A DNA stretch of 52,620 nt from the NCBI GenBank assembly GCA_030700155.1, contig JAUYJU010000017.1, positions 1 to 52,620 on the forward strand. The letters run 5' to 3'. Made by a program: the position numbers and the translations under genes. Positions 7,218-47,622 of this stretch are shown one piece after another. Position 1 is the first letter of the stretch; every line of letters starts with the position of its first letter. The notes beneath the pieces were generated by a model, which searched no databases, was not told the DNA's origin, and saw only the letters and a program-made list of their open reading frames with translations. Origin of the DNA: Candidatus Nanoarchaeia archaeon (lineage in GTDB: Archaea > Nanobdellota > Nanobdellia > SCGC-AAA011-G17 > JAUYJU01).

Positions 7218-7306
7218 CGGGCCCGATGGGATTTGAACCCACGACCCCTTGCTTTCTCCTTTTAAATTAAAAGGCAAGTGCTCTAGCCAGGCTGAGCTAC
7301 GGGCCC
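7218..7306 (-). tRNA. tRNA-Lys (UUU) with a 14-nt intron
   Basis: Acceptor GGGCCCG pairs perfectly with CGGGCCC, and the discriminator is G. D arm GCTC...GAGC, T arm with TTCAAAT loop. The anticodon stem CTTGC/GCAAG encloses 21 nt: a 7-nt loop with anticodon TTT plus a 14-nt insertion after position 37. CCTTTT in the loop can pair with AAAAGG in the intron, as expected for a bulge-helix-bulge splicing site. No CCA is encoded. It sits 2 nt after tRNA-Asp and 12 nt before rpoH. Confidence 0.93.
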
Positions 7307-10020: not shown

Positions 10021-10143
10021 TCCCGGCGGCGAGATTTGAACTTGCAACCTATCGGGTACGGCTGGTGGAGATTCATAGTTTCTTAGTAGACACTCCATCC
10101 ACATCTACAGCCGATCGCTCTAGCCAGATTGAGCTACGCCGGG
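10021..10143 (-). tRNA. tRNA-Tyr (GUA) with a 48-nt intron
   Basis: Acceptor CCCGGCG/CGCCGGG with discriminator A (C1-G72 and A73 fit archaeal tRNA-Tyr). D arm GCTC/GAGC, anticodon stem ATCGG/CCGAT, loop CTGTAG...C with anticodon GTA. A 48-nt intron follows position 37, and GGCTG in the exon can pair with CAGCC in the intron as the splicing-site helix. The mature tRNA would be 75 nt. The T stem GCAAG/CTCGC contains one A-C mismatch. No CCA is encoded. Confidence 0.92.
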
Positions 10144-39252: not shown

Positions 39253-39771
39253 ATGAATCACAACATACCTTATAGTCCGATGGAACTTGCAGTCATGCAG
39301 GTTTGTCTAGAAATTGGATATACAACTAAAAAAATTGCAGATATAGTTGAAAGACCTGAAGAAGGAGTTTACTTAAAATTAAAAAGACTTCGGAGGAAGC
39401 ACCCAAAAAAGTGGAATTATAGAATATTAAGTACTGCTCTTAAAGACCTTCCTGAGACTAAAAATAAATACCTAGCTTCAAAAAAGTATTACAAATATCA
39501 TGAACTAGAAATTGAAGTTTTAAGAAATGGGGTAGAAAAAGGACTTACATTATTAGGACTTGAAGAACTACTAGGTAGACCATACAGGGGAATTTTACAA
39601 AAAATTAATAAATTAGAGAAAGAAAACCCTGAAGAATGGGATCACGGAGTAGTTAAAAAGTATCAAAGAGAATCCTACAGCATGAATAGAGAATCCTTTA
39701 GAAAACATCACAGAACTTATCGGAGCAAAAATAAAGAGTGGATTAATGAGCAAAAAAGAAAAGCTAAGTAA
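39253..39771 (+). CDS. Protein with duplicated HTH/Myb-like units
   Basis: 172 aa with two similar units of about 50 residues. Unit 1 (about 8-58): ELAVMQVCLEIGYTTKKIA, then KLKRLRRKHPKKW. Unit 2 (about 84-133): EIEVLRNGVEKGLTLLGLE, then KINKLEKENPEEW. Each looks like a three-helix HTH or Myb/SANT unit ending in a conserved tryptophan. The tail is basic. It is probably DNA-binding and stands before a zinc-finger-like gene 16 nt downstream. Confidence 0.6.
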   Translation: MNHNIPYSPMELAVMQVCLEIGYTTKKIADIVERPEEGVYLKLKRLRRKHPKKWNYRILSTALKDLPETKNKYLASKKYYKYHELEIEVLRNGVEKGLTLLGLEELLGRPYRGILQKINKLEKENPEEWDHGVVKKYQRESYSMNRESFRKHHRTYRSKNKEWINEQKRKAK

Positions 39772-39787
39772 AAAAAGAGGTTAACTA

Positions 39788-40093
39788 ATGAAAATACTTT
39801 ATAATCAAAAATGTGCAAGATGCCCTAAGATGGTTCCGATAATTTCTAGGAAACAATTTCCACTTTGTTATAATTGCCAGAAAAAAGAATTACAAGGTGA
39901 AATAAAAGATCCAAAAATGAAAAAATTATTTGATATTCCTGAAGAATATTACATGGAAAGTCCGTTCCTGCGTTCAATAAAATCATATTACTTAAAGTTT
40001 AATAAAATCTCAGATAAACAGAAAGAATTCTTCAAAAAAACTATAGAAGAAATTAAAGAAGATAAGGCTAAGAAATTAAAAAAGGAGGCTTAA
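39788..40093 (+). CDS. Small zinc-binding protein
   Basis: 101 aa. A CARCPKMVPI...CYNCQKK arrangement (two CxxC pairs, about residues 9-30) should bind one zinc. The rest is helical and lysine-rich (SDKQKEFFKKTIEEIKEDKA). It shares a promoter region with the HTH-duplication gene and has a GAGGT ribosome site about 8 nt upstream. Family not recognised. Confidence 0.6.
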   Translation: MKILYNQKCARCPKMVPIISRKQFPLCYNCQKKELQGEIKDPKMKKLFDIPEEYYMESPFLRSIKSYYLKFNKISDKQKEFFKKTIEEIKEDKAKKLKKEA

Positions 40094-41327: not shown

Positions 41328-41346
41328 CTTTCAAAAAGAGGTTAAC

Positions 41347-42630
41347 ATGAAAATAGAAAGAGCAAAAGGAACAAGAGATTTCTTACCTAAGGAAGCCTTA
41401 GCTAGGCAGTCCATGACTGATAAATTAAGAAAAGTCTTTGAAAAATACGGTTTCTCACCTACAGAAACTCCTATCTTAGAAAGATATGAAACTCTAGCCT
41501 CAAAATATGCTGGGGGTTCAGAAATTCTTAAAGAAACTTTCAAATTAAAAGATCAAGGAGATAGAGAACTAGGATTAAGATACGACTTAACAGTACCATT
41601 ATGCAGAGTTATAAGTTCAAATCCTCAATTAAAAATGCCATTCAAAAGGTATCAAATGGAAAGAGTTTTCAGAGATGGTCCAATCTCAGCAGGAAGATAC
41701 CGTGAATTCTATCAATGTGATGTAGACATTATAGGTTGCAAAAATATGACAGCAGATGCTGAACTATTAGCCTTAACTAAAGATGTTTTCAAAGAATTAA
41801 AATTAAAAGTAAATATCAAAGCAAACAATATCAAAATATTATACTCTATTTTAGAGTATGCAGGAATAAAAGAAAATAAAGAATCAGTTCTATTAAGTTT
41901 AGATAAATTTGAAAAAATAGGAGAAAAAGGTGTAATAGAAGAATTAAAACAAAAGAAAATTCCAGAAGATTCCATTAAAAAGTTATTAACTGCAATAGGA
42001 ACAAAAGGCTCTAATGAAGATAAAATAAAGAAACTAGATAAATTATTACAAAACAAAGAAGGCTTGGAAGAGATGAAACAATTAATTAAATATTCTAAAG
42101 ATTTTAATGCAGATTTTGAATTAGATTTAGGCTTAGCTCGTGGATTAAGTTATTACACAGGAACAGTTTTTGAAGTAAAACTAAAAGAAGGAAAAATAAC
42201 AAGTTCTGTAGCAGGCGGAGGCCGTTATGATAAAATTATAGGTCAATTTATAGAATCAAAACAAGAATATCCAGCAGTTGGAATTTCTTTTGGAATAGAC
42301 AGAATTTATGATACAACTACTCTAGAAAACAGACAAACTATCTCAGACGTCTTCGTAATACCGATAAACACTTTATCTAAATCAATAAAAATAGTCCAAA
42401 AACTAAGAGCAGAAGGTATCAAAGCAGAGATAGACCTTTTAGGAAGAAACATAGGTAAAAACTTAGATTATGCTAACACTCAAGGAATTCCTTTTGTAAT
42501 TTTTGCAGGAGAAAAAGAATTGAAGGCTAAAAAACTAAAATTAAAAGACATGAAATCTGGAAAAGAACAATTATCAGATCTAGATTCTATAATCAAAACT
42601 ATTAAAAAAAGCCTTACATACTCTCCTTAG
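41347..42630 (+). CDS. hisS: Histidyl-tRNA synthetase
   Basis: 427 aa, the usual length. Class II motifs: motif 2 MERVFRDGPISAGRYREFYQCD, the histidine-specific LGLARGLSYYTGTVFE and AGGGRYDKIIGQF, and motif 3 AVGISFGIDRI. A C-terminal anticodon-binding domain follows (about 335-427). GAGGT lies 4-5 nt before the ATG. Directly downstream of tRNA-His, its own substrate, with no separate promoter visible. Confidence 0.97.
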   Translation: MKIERAKGTRDFLPKEALARQSMTDKLRKVFEKYGFSPTETPILERYETLASKYAGGSEILKETFKLKDQGDRELGLRYDLTVPLCRVISSNPQLKMPFKRYQMERVFRDGPISAGRYREFYQCDVDIIGCKNMTADAELLALTKDVFKELKLKVNIKANNIKILYSILEYAGIKENKESVLLSLDKFEKIGEKGVIEELKQKKIPEDSIKKLLTAIGTKGSNEDKIKKLDKLLQNKEGLEEMKQLIKYSKDFNADFELDLGLARGLSYYTGTVFEVKLKEGKITSSVAGGGRYDKIIGQFIESKQEYPAVGISFGIDRIYDTTTLENRQTISDVFVIPINTLSKSIKIVQKLRAEGIKAEIDLLGRNIGKNLDYANTQGIPFVIFAGEKELKAKKLKLKDMKSGKEQLSDLDSIIKTIKKSLTYSP

Positions 42631-43613: not shown

Positions 43614-43855
43614 TTTCTAGCCATCTTCACAAAGAAGAAATAAATTAAAGCACCTATAAAACTAGCAAATATAATCACTAATATCCAAATTACCTTAGTA
43701 CTATCTTTTCTAAATCTTCTCTTAACACAATCTATCAACATCCAAAGCCAGAATAATGCTCCAGCTAACCAGAGTGCATGCATAAAAAACATAGGTAAGA
43801 AAAATATCAAAAGTGCTGCAACTAATACAAAAATAAAGATATTACTCAACATCAT
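43610..43855 (-). CDS. PLDc_N-like two-helix membrane protein
   Basis: 81 aa from an ATG at 43855 (a GTG at 43861 and an ATG at 43852 are alternatives); all overlap the scpA 3' end. Two membrane segments flank a cytosolic DCVKRRFRKDSTKVIW. The pattern W-LWMLIDC-...-IWILVIIF matches the PLDc_N domain found at the N terminus of cardiolipin synthases and as a stand-alone protein. Co-transcribed with scpA. Confidence 0.75.
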   Translation of the reverse strand: MMLSNIFIFVLVAALLIFFLPMFFMHALWLAGALFWLWMLIDCVKRRFRKDSTKVIWILVIIFASFIGALIYFFFVKMARK

Positions 43856-44624
43856 CTTCACCTTCTTCAGTTATTTCAACTAGTTCTTCATCAAGAACTT
43901 CTTGTTTATTTGCATCATATTTTGTAATATCGATTTCTCCAAATGGAACTTTTTGATGTAAATCAATATCATGATTATTAGACAAATACAATAAAGGCAT
44001 AAAAGTATAAATTTTATTATCCCTTGATGGATTATCTCCCACCAATTCTGAAAAAGTAACTTTCTCTTTTTTTGAAAACCATCCCACTATTCTATTATAA
44101 ACGCTTTTAATCAACTTAGTAATATCTATCTTTTTAGTAGGTAATTCAACTTCATTTATCACTCTTTCAGATTTTTTTCTAATAATTCTTTTATGTTCTA
44201 CTTTTAAGGCAGTATCTAAGGCACTCATCAAATCATTCAAATCAATTCTTCTCTTTCTTGCTTGAGGAGTTTTAATAAGTAAATCAGGTATAACTTCTTT
44301 TGTAATTGGATCTATAATATAACCCTCGTCATCTAACAAATCTTCATCAGTACGGAATAATTGGGCATCAAATTCTGTCATATCCTCATTCAAAAATTTA
44401 TGAGATTTAATTTTCAATAGAATCGCAGCTGCTAAAATTACTTTTCCAGATATAAAGAAATTATGTTCTTGTAATCCCTTTACAATATCAAGATATTTTC
44501 TTGATAATAGTGAAATATCAACGTCCCAAGGATTCATCTGTTCAGACTTAACTAGATCTTGGATAATAGTCTGCCAAGTAAGCTCGTCTTTCTTCATCAG
44601 CATATCTAATAATCTGTCTTGCAT
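43842..44624 (-). CDS. scpA: Segregation and condensation protein A (kleisin)
   Basis: 260 aa. The conserved N-terminal TWQTIIQDLVKSEQMNPWDVDISLLSRKYL is the ScpA kleisin motif, followed by the SMC-binding helix region. The C terminus is a winged-helix region rich in acidic residues. ScpA bridges SMC heads in chromosome condensation. No scpB or smc is in the window. TATA-like GATTTAAAAGCC (44649-44660) gives a leaderless start at 44624. Confidence 0.93.
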   Translation of the reverse strand: MQDRLLDMLMKKDELTWQTIIQDLVKSEQMNPWDVDISLLSRKYLDIVKGLQEHNFFISGKVILAAAILLKIKSHKFLNEDMTEFDAQLFRTDEDLLDDEGYIIDPITKEVIPDLLIKTPQARKRRIDLNDLMSALDTALKVEHKRIIRKKSERVINEVELPTKKIDITKLIKSVYNRIVGWFSKKEKVTFSELVGDNPSRDNKIYTFMPLLYLSNNHDIDLHQKVPFGEIDITKYDANKQEVLDEELVEITEEGEDDVE

Positions 44625-44699: not shown

Positions 44700-44993
44700 A
44701 TGTTTTATGATACTGACGAAGAAGCGCATATTCTTTATAGGGAAGTTAAATGTGCAGAAGCTAACCTTTTTGATAATTCAAAACATTCTATAGAAGATAT
44801 GCTTACAACGGCGTATGGATCGTTCAAGAGCCTTGAAAAGTTCTTCCCTAAAAGCTATCTTACGAGGGCTGCAAGAGTTGAACTTGAACACCTAAAAGAG
44901 ACTTATTCTAAACATATAAAACACCAGGAAATAGGTATTTCTGACTATTTAGAGCTGTATTTTGATTTAGACCTTTTTGTAACTACTATCTAA
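44700..44993 (+). CDS. Hypothetical helical protein
   Basis: 97 aa from the ATG at 44700 (an in-frame TTG at 44691 is the alternative). TATA-like TTTTTATAAAAC (about 44667-44678) supports this start. The sequence is acidic and helical (DEEAHILYREVKCAEANLFD; EHLKETYSKHIKH), with no recognised motif. Transcribed toward the RNA-like region at 45.0 kb. Confidence 0.55.
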   Translation: MFYDTDEEAHILYREVKCAEANLFDNSKHSIEDMLTTAYGSFKSLEKFFPKSYLTRAARVELEHLKETYSKHIKHQEIGISDYLELYFDLDLFVTTI

Positions 44994-45010
44994 TGATTGC
45001 AATAGAAAGG

Positions 45011-45034
45011 TTTAAATATGAGTGATATATCACT
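45011..45034 (+). promoter_or_regulatory. Promoter with a 14-bp palindromic operator
   Basis: A TATA-like TTTAAATATG (45011-45020) is followed immediately by AGTGATATATCACT (45021-45034), a perfect 14-bp palindrome located between TATA box and predicted start (about 45040). A dimeric repressor bound there would block transcription. Confidence 0.55.
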
Positions 45035-45039
45035 AGTAT

Positions 45040-45205
45040 TATCACCTCTTTTTTCCCAGGATGCAGCTCTCGGGTTGCATCCCAGGGTTTACTAATCCAA
45101 GTCAGAACTATCTTCTTAGGCTTTTTACTGCTGTTTTAAGTATACTTAATTTTCTCGGGTTGCAGACTAGAGTCTATACTACAAATTCAAACTGCAAAAA
45201 GTAAC
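45040..45205 (+). ncRNA. Candidate structured RNA
   Basis: The region lies between a promoter and a small ORF pair. GGATGCA (45059-45065) pairs with TGCATCC (45076-45082) over a 10-nt loop. TTGCAG (45161-45166 region) can pair with CTGCAA (45192-45197 region), and AGACT/AGTCT forms an inner hairpin. The 12-mer TCTCGGGTTGCA occurs twice (45068-45079 and 45153-45164). A 47-codon ORF (45061-45204) is open across it, but its codons (CTC, TCG, GGG, AGG) differ from the neighbours, so RNA is favoured. No known family recognised. Confidence 0.35.
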
Positions 45206-45256
45206 CTAAAATATTTAAGTGGGAAAGTTTAAAAAGTCGTTTATCTTTAAAGAATT

Positions 45257-45442
45257 ATGACAAATGTAACCTTAGAAGAAGTTAATAAAAATGTGCTTGA
45301 ACTAAAAAGAGAAATCGAGGAAATACGTAGCTTTCTAAATGAAGATTTTGAATTAGCCGAAGATGTGAAAAAAGAAATTGAAGAGTCTAGAAAACGTTCT
45401 GATTCTGAATTCATAAGTAATGAAAATATCCAATTTAACTGA
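45257..45442 (+). CDS. Antitoxin-like small protein
   Basis: 61 aa. After a charged helix (LKREIEEIRSFLNEDFELA) comes a segment EDVKKEIEESRKR...EFI, reminiscent of RelB/VapB-type antitoxins. TATA-like TTTAAAAAG (about 45228-45236) is about 20-30 nt upstream. The next ORF overlaps it by 23 nt in another frame. No RelE or PIN toxin follows, so this may be an orphan or decayed system. Confidence 0.5.
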   Translation: MTNVTLEEVNKNVLELKREIEEIRSFLNEDFELAEDVKKEIEESRKRSDSEFISNENIQFN

Positions 45443-45569
45443 AAAAGAAATAGAAGAATTCGCAGTTAAATTAGGAAAGAAAATAACCTCACGAAAAATG
45501 ATGGAAGCTATTAAAGAAAGTGATGAAGCAAAAGAGAAGGGTGTAAAAACCTGGAAATTAAACGTTTAA
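45420..45569 (+). CDS. 49-aa small protein overlapping the antitoxin-like gene
   Basis: The frame starts with ATG at 45420 and encodes NLTEKEIEEFAVKLGKKITS, then MMEAIKESDEAKEKG and WKLNV. Charged and helical; family not recognised. The 23-nt overlap with the preceding gene suggests co-translation, but a chance ORF cannot be ruled out. Confidence 0.4.
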   Translation: MKISNLTEKEIEEFAVKLGKKITSRKMMEAIKESDEAKEKGVKTWKLNV

Positions 45570-47053: not shown

Positions 47054-47251
47054 TTATTGAACAGGTTTAGGTGCACTCTTCATCTCAGTATAATGACAAG
47101 CACCACAGAAAACTCTATCTTTATGATTGCCTAAAAAAGTTCCAGGTCCACATTTAGGGCAATTTCTTTCTTTAGTTAAATTATCTCCAGAAACTTTATA
47201 CTTCTTCCATTTTTCAGAAGGTCTCTTGTTTTTAACTTTCTTTTTTGCCAT
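47054..47251 (-). CDS. rps27ae: Ribosomal protein S27Ae
   Basis: 65 aa, a small-subunit protein. A basic N terminus (KKKVKNKRPSEKWKKYKV) precedes a zinc ribbon with CPKCGPGTFL...VFCGACHYTE. It follows S24e with a 2-nt gap, as in most archaea, and ends the PIN-rpoE'-spt4-S24e-S27ae cluster. Confidence 0.96.
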   Translation of the reverse strand: MAKKKVKNKRPSEKWKKYKVSGDNLTKERNCPKCGPGTFLGNHKDRVFCGACHYTEMKSAPKPVQ

Positions 47252-47253
47252 TA

Positions 47254-47622
47254 TTATGCCTTCACTTCAGCTGGTTTTACTTCTGCAGGAGCTTCAGCAG
47301 GTTTTGCAGCAGCTTCCTTAACAGCTTTTCTATCAGCTAAATCCTTATCTCTAATCTCTTTCAAAACTTTCTTTTTCCTATAAAAATGAATTTTATCTAA
47401 ATTTTCTTTTTTATCATAAACAAATATCTCAGCTTTACAACCTTGACCATATTCTTGTTCAATTTCATAAACAAAGATTACATCTTCCTTAGCTTTAAGC
47501 ATTGGTGCTACTTGTTTAGCAACTTCAGCCCTGGAAGGAGTTGATTTAGTTTCAGATTCCAAATTTACTAAAACTTCTTTTCTATGCAATAATTTATTTT
47601 GTCTTTCTTCTAATATTTTCAT
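47254..47622 (-). CDS. rps24e: Ribosomal protein S24e
   Basis: 122 aa. The body (MKILEERQNKLLHRKEVLVN; EIEQEYGQGCKAEIFVYD) matches S24e. A C-terminal tail of about 20 residues, alanine-, proline- and lysine-rich (AKPAEAPAEVKPAEVKA), extends past the usual end. It overlaps spt4 by 4 nt. Confidence 0.95.
   Translation of the reverse strand: MKILEERQNKLLHRKEVLVNLESETKSTPSRAEVAKQVAPMLKAKEDVIFVYEIEQEYGQGCKAEIFVYDKKENLDKIHFYRKKKVLKEIRDKDLADRKAVKEAAAKPAEAPAEVKPAEVKA

Follow-up and report, generated by a model that had tools for sequence, protein, structure and literature searches.

The window analysed here, a stretch of DNA 52,620 nucleotides long, carries at positions 45041 to 45093 of the plus strand what is almost certainly a member of a real, conserved and unannotated RNA family. 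Comparison of related sequences establishes this family together with its strand, structure, promoter, synteny and viral copies. The reading of its function that we favour, at a probability of roughly one half, is that of an Sm-assisted, trans-acting anti-Shine-Dalgarno regulator whose 5' seed would mask Shine-Dalgarno sites of the AAAAGAGGU type. A sequence-only reading of the window had already proposed a structured RNA behind a promoter at this place; the proposal holds, since the RNA is conserved, shows compensatory changes and lies at a fixed distance from its promoter, while most of the reasons originally given for it were wrong.

Distribution of the RNA family

Covariance-model matches to the small RNA occur in 301 of 371 Nanoarchaeota genomes (203 of the 243 good ones) and in 219 of 259 genera, with Pacearchaeota and Woesearchaeota among the carriers. 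Within the window the copy is unique, scoring 68.7 bits (E 4e-15) against covariance model R1 with filters off. BLAST of positions 44990-45256 against 99 relatives gave strong DNA matches over query positions ~16-107 in many families of the order, and all 30 loci fetched from BLAST carry AUCACCUCUUUUU, an exact 13-nt seed match being demanded neither of the BLAST loci nor of the covariance-model matches. A pattern scan of named genomes, in which the 13-nt seed was part of the search pattern, as it was in the viral scans, returned at least 110 records, nearly all from Pacearchaeota, Woesearchaeota and other Nanoarchaeota. Two contigs filed as Bacteroidetes and Patescibacteria (L065 and L099) hold a Pacearchaeota-type copy and are probably mis-binned.

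The number of model matches per genome ranges from 1 to 7, the genome with seven being L191/G351. Whole genera of good genome quality lack the RNA, and 20 genomes without it stayed negative on a recheck with laxer filters, with top scores of ~20 bits. One genome without the RNA (G106) has many weak, scattered matches of equal length and score (~21 nt, 16.7 bits), perhaps a dispersed short repeat.

The statement of the sequence-only reading that no known RNA family matches is borne out by Rfam, which returned nothing for the small RNA at gathering cut-offs or at E up to 10. In the papers searched, the small RNA is not described, and neither is any regulatory small RNA common to an entire archaeal phylum. 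Other identities for the locus were rejected: there is no tRNA or tmRNA at this spot; the sole match to a C/D or H/ACA guide RNA is a C/D hit at chance level (E 6.2), which covers 44984-45038, 5' of the RNA; and a 16S rRNA fragment or pseudogene would have to rest on an 8-nt identity to the 16S tail, with no SSU match at the locus.

Promoter and upstream sequence

The TATA-like box noticed by eye is present as TTTAAATA at 45011-45018 on the plus strand, 30 nt 5' of the predicted start. The family box reads TTTAWATA and is followed by ~22 variable nt before AUCACCUCUUUUU; counted from the first T of TTTAWA, AUCACC lies 29 nt away in 76 of 122 relatives, and no relative falls outside 28-32 nt. 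Because the TATA spacing is fixed, the start is predicted at the A of AUCACC, A45041. Directly upstream on the same strand lies a BRE, ATAGAAAGG at 45002-45010 (family consensus CCGAAAG), in which base frequencies over 121 relatives reach 98-100% for AAA and 85-93% for CG.

The BRE is preceded by an imperfect dyad, TGTAACTACT...TGATTGCAAT at 44978-45003 (plus strand), which is a degenerate form of the element TGTNACT...AGTNACA that is conserved in an alignment of 122 relatives; in 400 kb of genome G284 the full dyad plus BRE/TATA occurs just once, at the RNA gene. This dyad is the better regulatory candidate when compared with the 14-bp perfect palindrome to which repressor control had been ascribed. 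The palindrome exists, as AGTGATATATCACT at 45021-45034, where it lies outside the family, but it is neither unusual nor conserved: the window holds 7 perfect palindromes of at least 14 bp against 7.25 expected from shuffles, and a palindrome of at least 10 bp is found in the promoter spacer of only 4 of 122 relatives. The repeated 12-mer TCTCGGGTTGCA likewise occurs as described, at 45068 and 45153, 85 nt apart, with its second copy outside the conserved unit and several other 12-mer repeats at similar spacing in the window. Given the shuffle counts and these peers in the window, palindrome and repeat are both at chance level. In five loci from other orders (L190, L184, L177, L182 and L192) the TATA box is closely followed by a second dyad, TACT...AGTA, and the RNA module is accompanied by another on its 5' or its 3' side.

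Structure and coding strand

Far beyond chance is the conserved unit made up of the promoter and positions 45041-45093, with covariation in two sets of relatives. The RNA on the plus strand is predicted to begin with the seed and continues with a U6 tract (45049-45054), of which U5 is invariant in alignments A1 and A2 and which is a candidate Sm/Lsm site and seed extension. It then forms a hairpin, CCC-A-GGATGCAGCT/CUCG loop/GGTTGCATCC-CA-GGG, at 45055-45087, and closes with the 3' tail UUUACU (45088-45093; family GGGUUUUAU), a weak U-run that at the DNA level is 2-4 T long in most relatives; position 45093 marks the end of the conserved unit, as distinct from a mapped 3' end. The layout common among relatives is AUCACCUCUUUUU, CCC, a hairpin of free sequence, GGG and UUUUAU. 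Nucleotides 1-12 of the RNA are 99% unpaired over 148 sequences. The first of the two hairpins originally proposed is thus the conserved one, and the second falls outside the conserved unit. The full 169 nt folded alone give a z of -1.84 against shuffles, a mild value.

The stem is held by compensatory change. Two-sided changes occur in 10 of 14 stem pairs, and covariation over 38 sequences is 0.484 against 0.202 when shuffled, falling to 0.25 or less once the alignment is slid by one column. In 27 matches from other orders, two-sided changes affect 11 of 14 pairs and covariation is 0.721 against 0.260 when shuffled, figures biased toward the model structure in that these sequences were aligned to the model. 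Such covariation values were reached in none of 500 shuffles. The strand is indicated by UUCG loops, of which the family has 46 on the plus strand and none on the minus strand. In Pacearchaeota the hairpin is longer and its loop contains another U-tract. Other orders have tandem modules; in some of these orders the module is preceded by a 40-100 nt leader and a degenerate second one.

A covariance search in related genomes and a check of codon-type against compensatory substitutions were the follow-up that the sequence-only reading had itself proposed, and they yield a phylum-wide family with a covarying stem. The 47-codon ORF that is open through the region does exist, with an ATG, at 45061-45204, but its frame is not conserved, an ATG ORF of at least 10 codons across the hairpin being missing in 81 of 122 relatives. 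Because the changes are compensatory and no frame is conserved, the coding ORF was rejected by the reading's own measure, and it was dropped along with the palindromic operator and the 12-mer repeat, all three being unconserved in relatives.

Gene order

In the window the RNA gene is flanked by scpA, divergent at 43842-44624 on the minus strand (Pfam SMC_ScpA, E 8e-14), and by the convergent genes for S27ae and S24e at 47054-47622, also on the minus strand (Ribosomal_S27, E 3e-15). The order scpA, RNA gene, S27ae/S24e, in these orientations, recurs in the family: ScpA is near the RNA in 67 of 122 loci, S27ae/S24e in 61 and both in 41, counts in which many contigs end early. Given this shared gene order, the gene has most likely been in the phylum for a long time and been passed on mainly by vertical descent. 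Two small overlapping plus-strand ORFs (61 and 49 aa) lie 3' of the RNA at 45257-45569 and have the look of an antitoxin-type pair; the first has no Pfam match above cut-off. Elsewhere in the window, on the minus strand, a covariance model finds two tRNA genes missed by ARAGORN, at 7218-7306 and 10021-10143, the latter, of 123 nt, probably intron-bearing.

Gene order also bears on whether the element acts as a free RNA, rather than as a DNA element or as a 5' leader or terminator module of adjacent mRNAs. Viral copies at gene junctions in late operons could be taken in that sense, as could a hairpin plus U-run that resembles a terminator, but at 63 of 102 host loci the next gene is encoded on the other strand, and the one-stranded UUCG loops and a promoter of its own at a fixed distance make such a module highly improbable.

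It is improbable, too, that the RNA is a structural or housekeeping molecule (an RNP scaffold, a ribosome-associated or a hibernation RNA) whose likeness to the 16S tail is a coincidence. Its near-universality in the phylum, its synteny with ribosomal-protein and chromosome genes and its strong promoter would all agree with a housekeeping role; its absence from entire good-quality genera and the variable number of matches per genome do not, and capture by viruses better suits a regulator.

The seed and its predicted targets

The unpaired 5' seed, AUCACCUC at 45041-45048 (plus strand), is identical over 8 nt to the 16S rRNA 3' tail (GGAUCACCUCCU), that is, to the anti-Shine-Dalgarno. The tail itself is intact in 20 of 20 genomes read, which rules out the RNA as a stand-in for a lost 16S anti-Shine-Dalgarno. 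The two part after CUC, where the RNA runs into U5 and 16S rRNA into CUU or CUA. All aligned relatives carry the seed AUCACCUCUUUUU, and since it is invariant it is unable to covary with targets.

Upstream of start codons, GAGGT is the top enriched pentamer and the Shine-Dalgarno core in genomes G000, G102 and G004, three of the larger samples. In G000 and G102 a preceding G, which 16S rRNA would favour, shows no enrichment before GAGGT. A single A in that position is just mildly above background; of 126 GAGGT sites, 20 have AAAA in front, while the share is 3.9% at other G positions (P 3e-7) and 6.6% at GGAG sites (P 0.013). The observation is post hoc, and A-rich leaders might have arisen for a different reason. 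Leaders of the AAAAGAGGT type are enriched and have favourable duplex energies with the small RNA. In the window the predicted targets, on the plus strand, are AAAAAGAGGT at 41333-41342, the Shine-Dalgarno sequence of HisRS (ATG at 41347), and AAAAAAAGAGGT at 39770-39781, that of the ORF at 39788. The HisRS leader AAAAAGAGGUUAAC has a duplex energy of -11.8 kcal/mol with the small RNA seed against -7.1 with the 16S tail, and leaders with AAGGAGG reverse this preference. This is consistent with a seed adapted to a limited set of mRNAs, a reading made post hoc. A search of the RNA's own genome for AAAGAGGTGAT with one mismatch showed no enrichment (43 against 42 in the reversed control). Many mRNAs in the phylum have no Shine-Dalgarno sequence, G284 being an example, so the possible targets should be modest in number.

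The same observations weigh against a global decoy, a plentiful RNA that under stress would compete with ribosomes for every mRNA with a Shine-Dalgarno site and would have no special targets. A strong BRE/TATA promoter and a seed that can pair with the general core GAGGT would serve a decoy well, but the seed leaves the 16S tail after CUC for a U5 that favours a subset of leaders, and the sparse use of Shine-Dalgarno sites in some of the phylum and the AAAAGAGGT bias weaken the idea further, so that we regard it as quite improbable.

The main rival supposes that the mimicry is directed at proteins, in the way that CsrB titrates CsrA: factors of the 16S 3' end, such as KH proteins (archaeal Dim2/Pno1), Nob1 or ribosomal proteins, would bind AUCACCUC, and 30S maturation would be titrated or regulated. 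The identical 8 nt include AUCA, a stretch that core Shine-Dalgarno pairing can almost do without, tandem copies would suit a sponge, and some members have few Shine-Dalgarno mRNAs. A precedent for reading GAUCACCUCC is bacterial Era, which recognises it according to Tu et al. 2011 as cited in PMC10582724; archaea, however, are without Era (PMC10582724). The RNA copies neither helix 45 nor the upstream GG, and protein-directed mimicry explains neither why the U5 tract is conserved nor why Sm-like proteins are encoded nearby. We consider it unlikely, although it is the chief competitor of an anti-Shine-Dalgarno regulator.

Proposed mechanism

As an anti-Shine-Dalgarno regulator, the small RNA would be made from a stand-alone gene whose strong archaeal promoter is predicted to start a short RNA precisely at AUCACCUCUUUUU. 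Its unpaired 5' seed copies the 16S anti-Shine-Dalgarno tail and then departs from it (CUCUUUUU as against CUCCUUU), and the U-tract beside the CCC/GGG hairpin would be the likely landing site of an Sm-like (Lsm/Hfq) protein. By pairing with start regions that carry a AAAAGAGGU(G) Shine-Dalgarno sequence, the RNA would cover the site and block 30S binding, and so probably switch chosen mRNAs off. Tandem modules in other orders would supply several seeds, and viral copies, some with an Sm-fold protein encoded next to them, would presumably serve to redirect this control during infection. In this scheme transcription of the RNA, Sm binding, mRNA silencing and viral use are inferred. Features of the small RNA class are present, namely a promoter of its own at a fixed distance and a single-stranded U-tract beside a stable hairpin, and 19 of 21 genomes have an LSM gene (PF01423), among them the window's, in which it lies at G000:C22:40177-40368. 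What archaeal Lsm proteins do is still an open question (PMC10221803).

Viral copies

Nineteen IMG/VR contigs match the RNA patterns, at least 15 of which score at least 28 bits in the model, and several of the contigs that bear the RNA are plainly tailed viruses, with genes for terminase, portal, capsid and tape measure. The copy lies between the terminase and portal genes in four (L193, L195, L227 and L231), on matching sides of terminase/portal in two (L236 and L237), and 3' of the head-tail adaptor in two (L194 and L241). Where a viral copy has a clear TATA box, the box mostly lies 29-31 nt upstream; some copies have none. Because the RNA is shared, the hosts of these viruses are presumably Nanoarchaeota.

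On two viral contigs the RNA adjoins a gene for a protein of predicted Sm fold. The 61-aa protein encoded 53 nt 3' of the RNA in L232 has a predicted structure (pLDDT 87) that matches M. jannaschii Hfq with a TM of 0.78, an rmsd of 0.8 A and an E of 5e-4; the gene for an 82-aa protein of L235 ends 2 nt 5' of the RNA, and the protein matches archaeal SmAPs (E 4e-3) in a low-confidence model (pLDDT 67). BLASTP of one against the other gave no alignment. These neighbours may be a clue to Sm-like proteins that bind the U-tract; as archaeal mobile elements often carry Sm/Hfq-like genes (PMC3543421), this proximity is no more than suggestive. At L078 (3283-4796) the RNA gene is directly followed by a tyrosine integrase gene and a 64-aa Hfq-like gene, which together mark an integrated element that adjoins the RNA locus or was aimed at it; its Hfq-like protein is related to the viral protein of L232 (E 2e-5). 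A broader reading, which we think rather unlikely, would make the rRNA-tail mimic a core translation regulator of the phylum, captured by its tailed viruses, in some with a virus-encoded Sm/Hfq partner, and deciding which mRNAs are translated late in infection.

Comparison with known systems

The family offers one RNA, one candidate seed, a few leaders predicted as targets, and variants that occur naturally in viruses. With these, one can test directly whether archaeal Lsm proteins aid the search of a small RNA for its mRNAs, and metatranscriptomes extend the test to uncultured symbiotic archaea. The RNA may in addition serve as a marker that ties viral contigs to Nanoarchaeota hosts.

Bacterial Hfq-dependent small RNAs of the RybB type have an exposed seed at the 5' terminus, a U-rich stretch and a stable hairpin. 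The archaeal RNA resembles them in all three elements; it differs in that its U-tract precedes the hairpin and its Sm binding is putative. From the 16S rRNA 3' tail, with which AUCACCUC is identical over 8 nt, it departs in having U5-6 next, not CUUU or CUAU, and no helix 45. For sRNA41 of Methanosarcina mazei we know of no 16S-tail mimic and no phylum-wide conservation. That archaeal intergenic small RNA is a proposed masker of ribosome binding sites (PMC5867862) and was described in one species, whereas the RNA here is phylum-wide. The Hfq/Sm-like proteins of archaeal plasmids and viruses are likewise encoded by Sm-fold genes on mobile elements (PMC3543421), and here two such genes directly adjoin a host-type small RNA copy.

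Closest in manner of working are the alpha-r14/cuckoo RNAs of rhizobia (NfeR1), which use unpaired, ultraconserved anti-Shine-Dalgarno motifs to silence mRNAs at the start region (PMC10746234). The two share an unpaired anti-Shine-Dalgarno motif beside hairpins of variable stem sequence, and several copies of the motif. In alpha-r14 the motif is CCUCCUCCC and stands in three hairpins; in the archaeal RNA it is AUCACCUCUUUUU and occupies the 5' end, followed by a CCC/GGG hairpin. One is rhizobial and the other phylum-wide in archaea and also viral, and Rfam gives no relation for the archaeal RNA at E up to 10, with the proviso that it may lack an alpha-r14 model. Because motif, host domain and layout differ, the archaeal RNA is not a member of alpha-r14/cuckoo, the family that comes closest to it as a working analogue.
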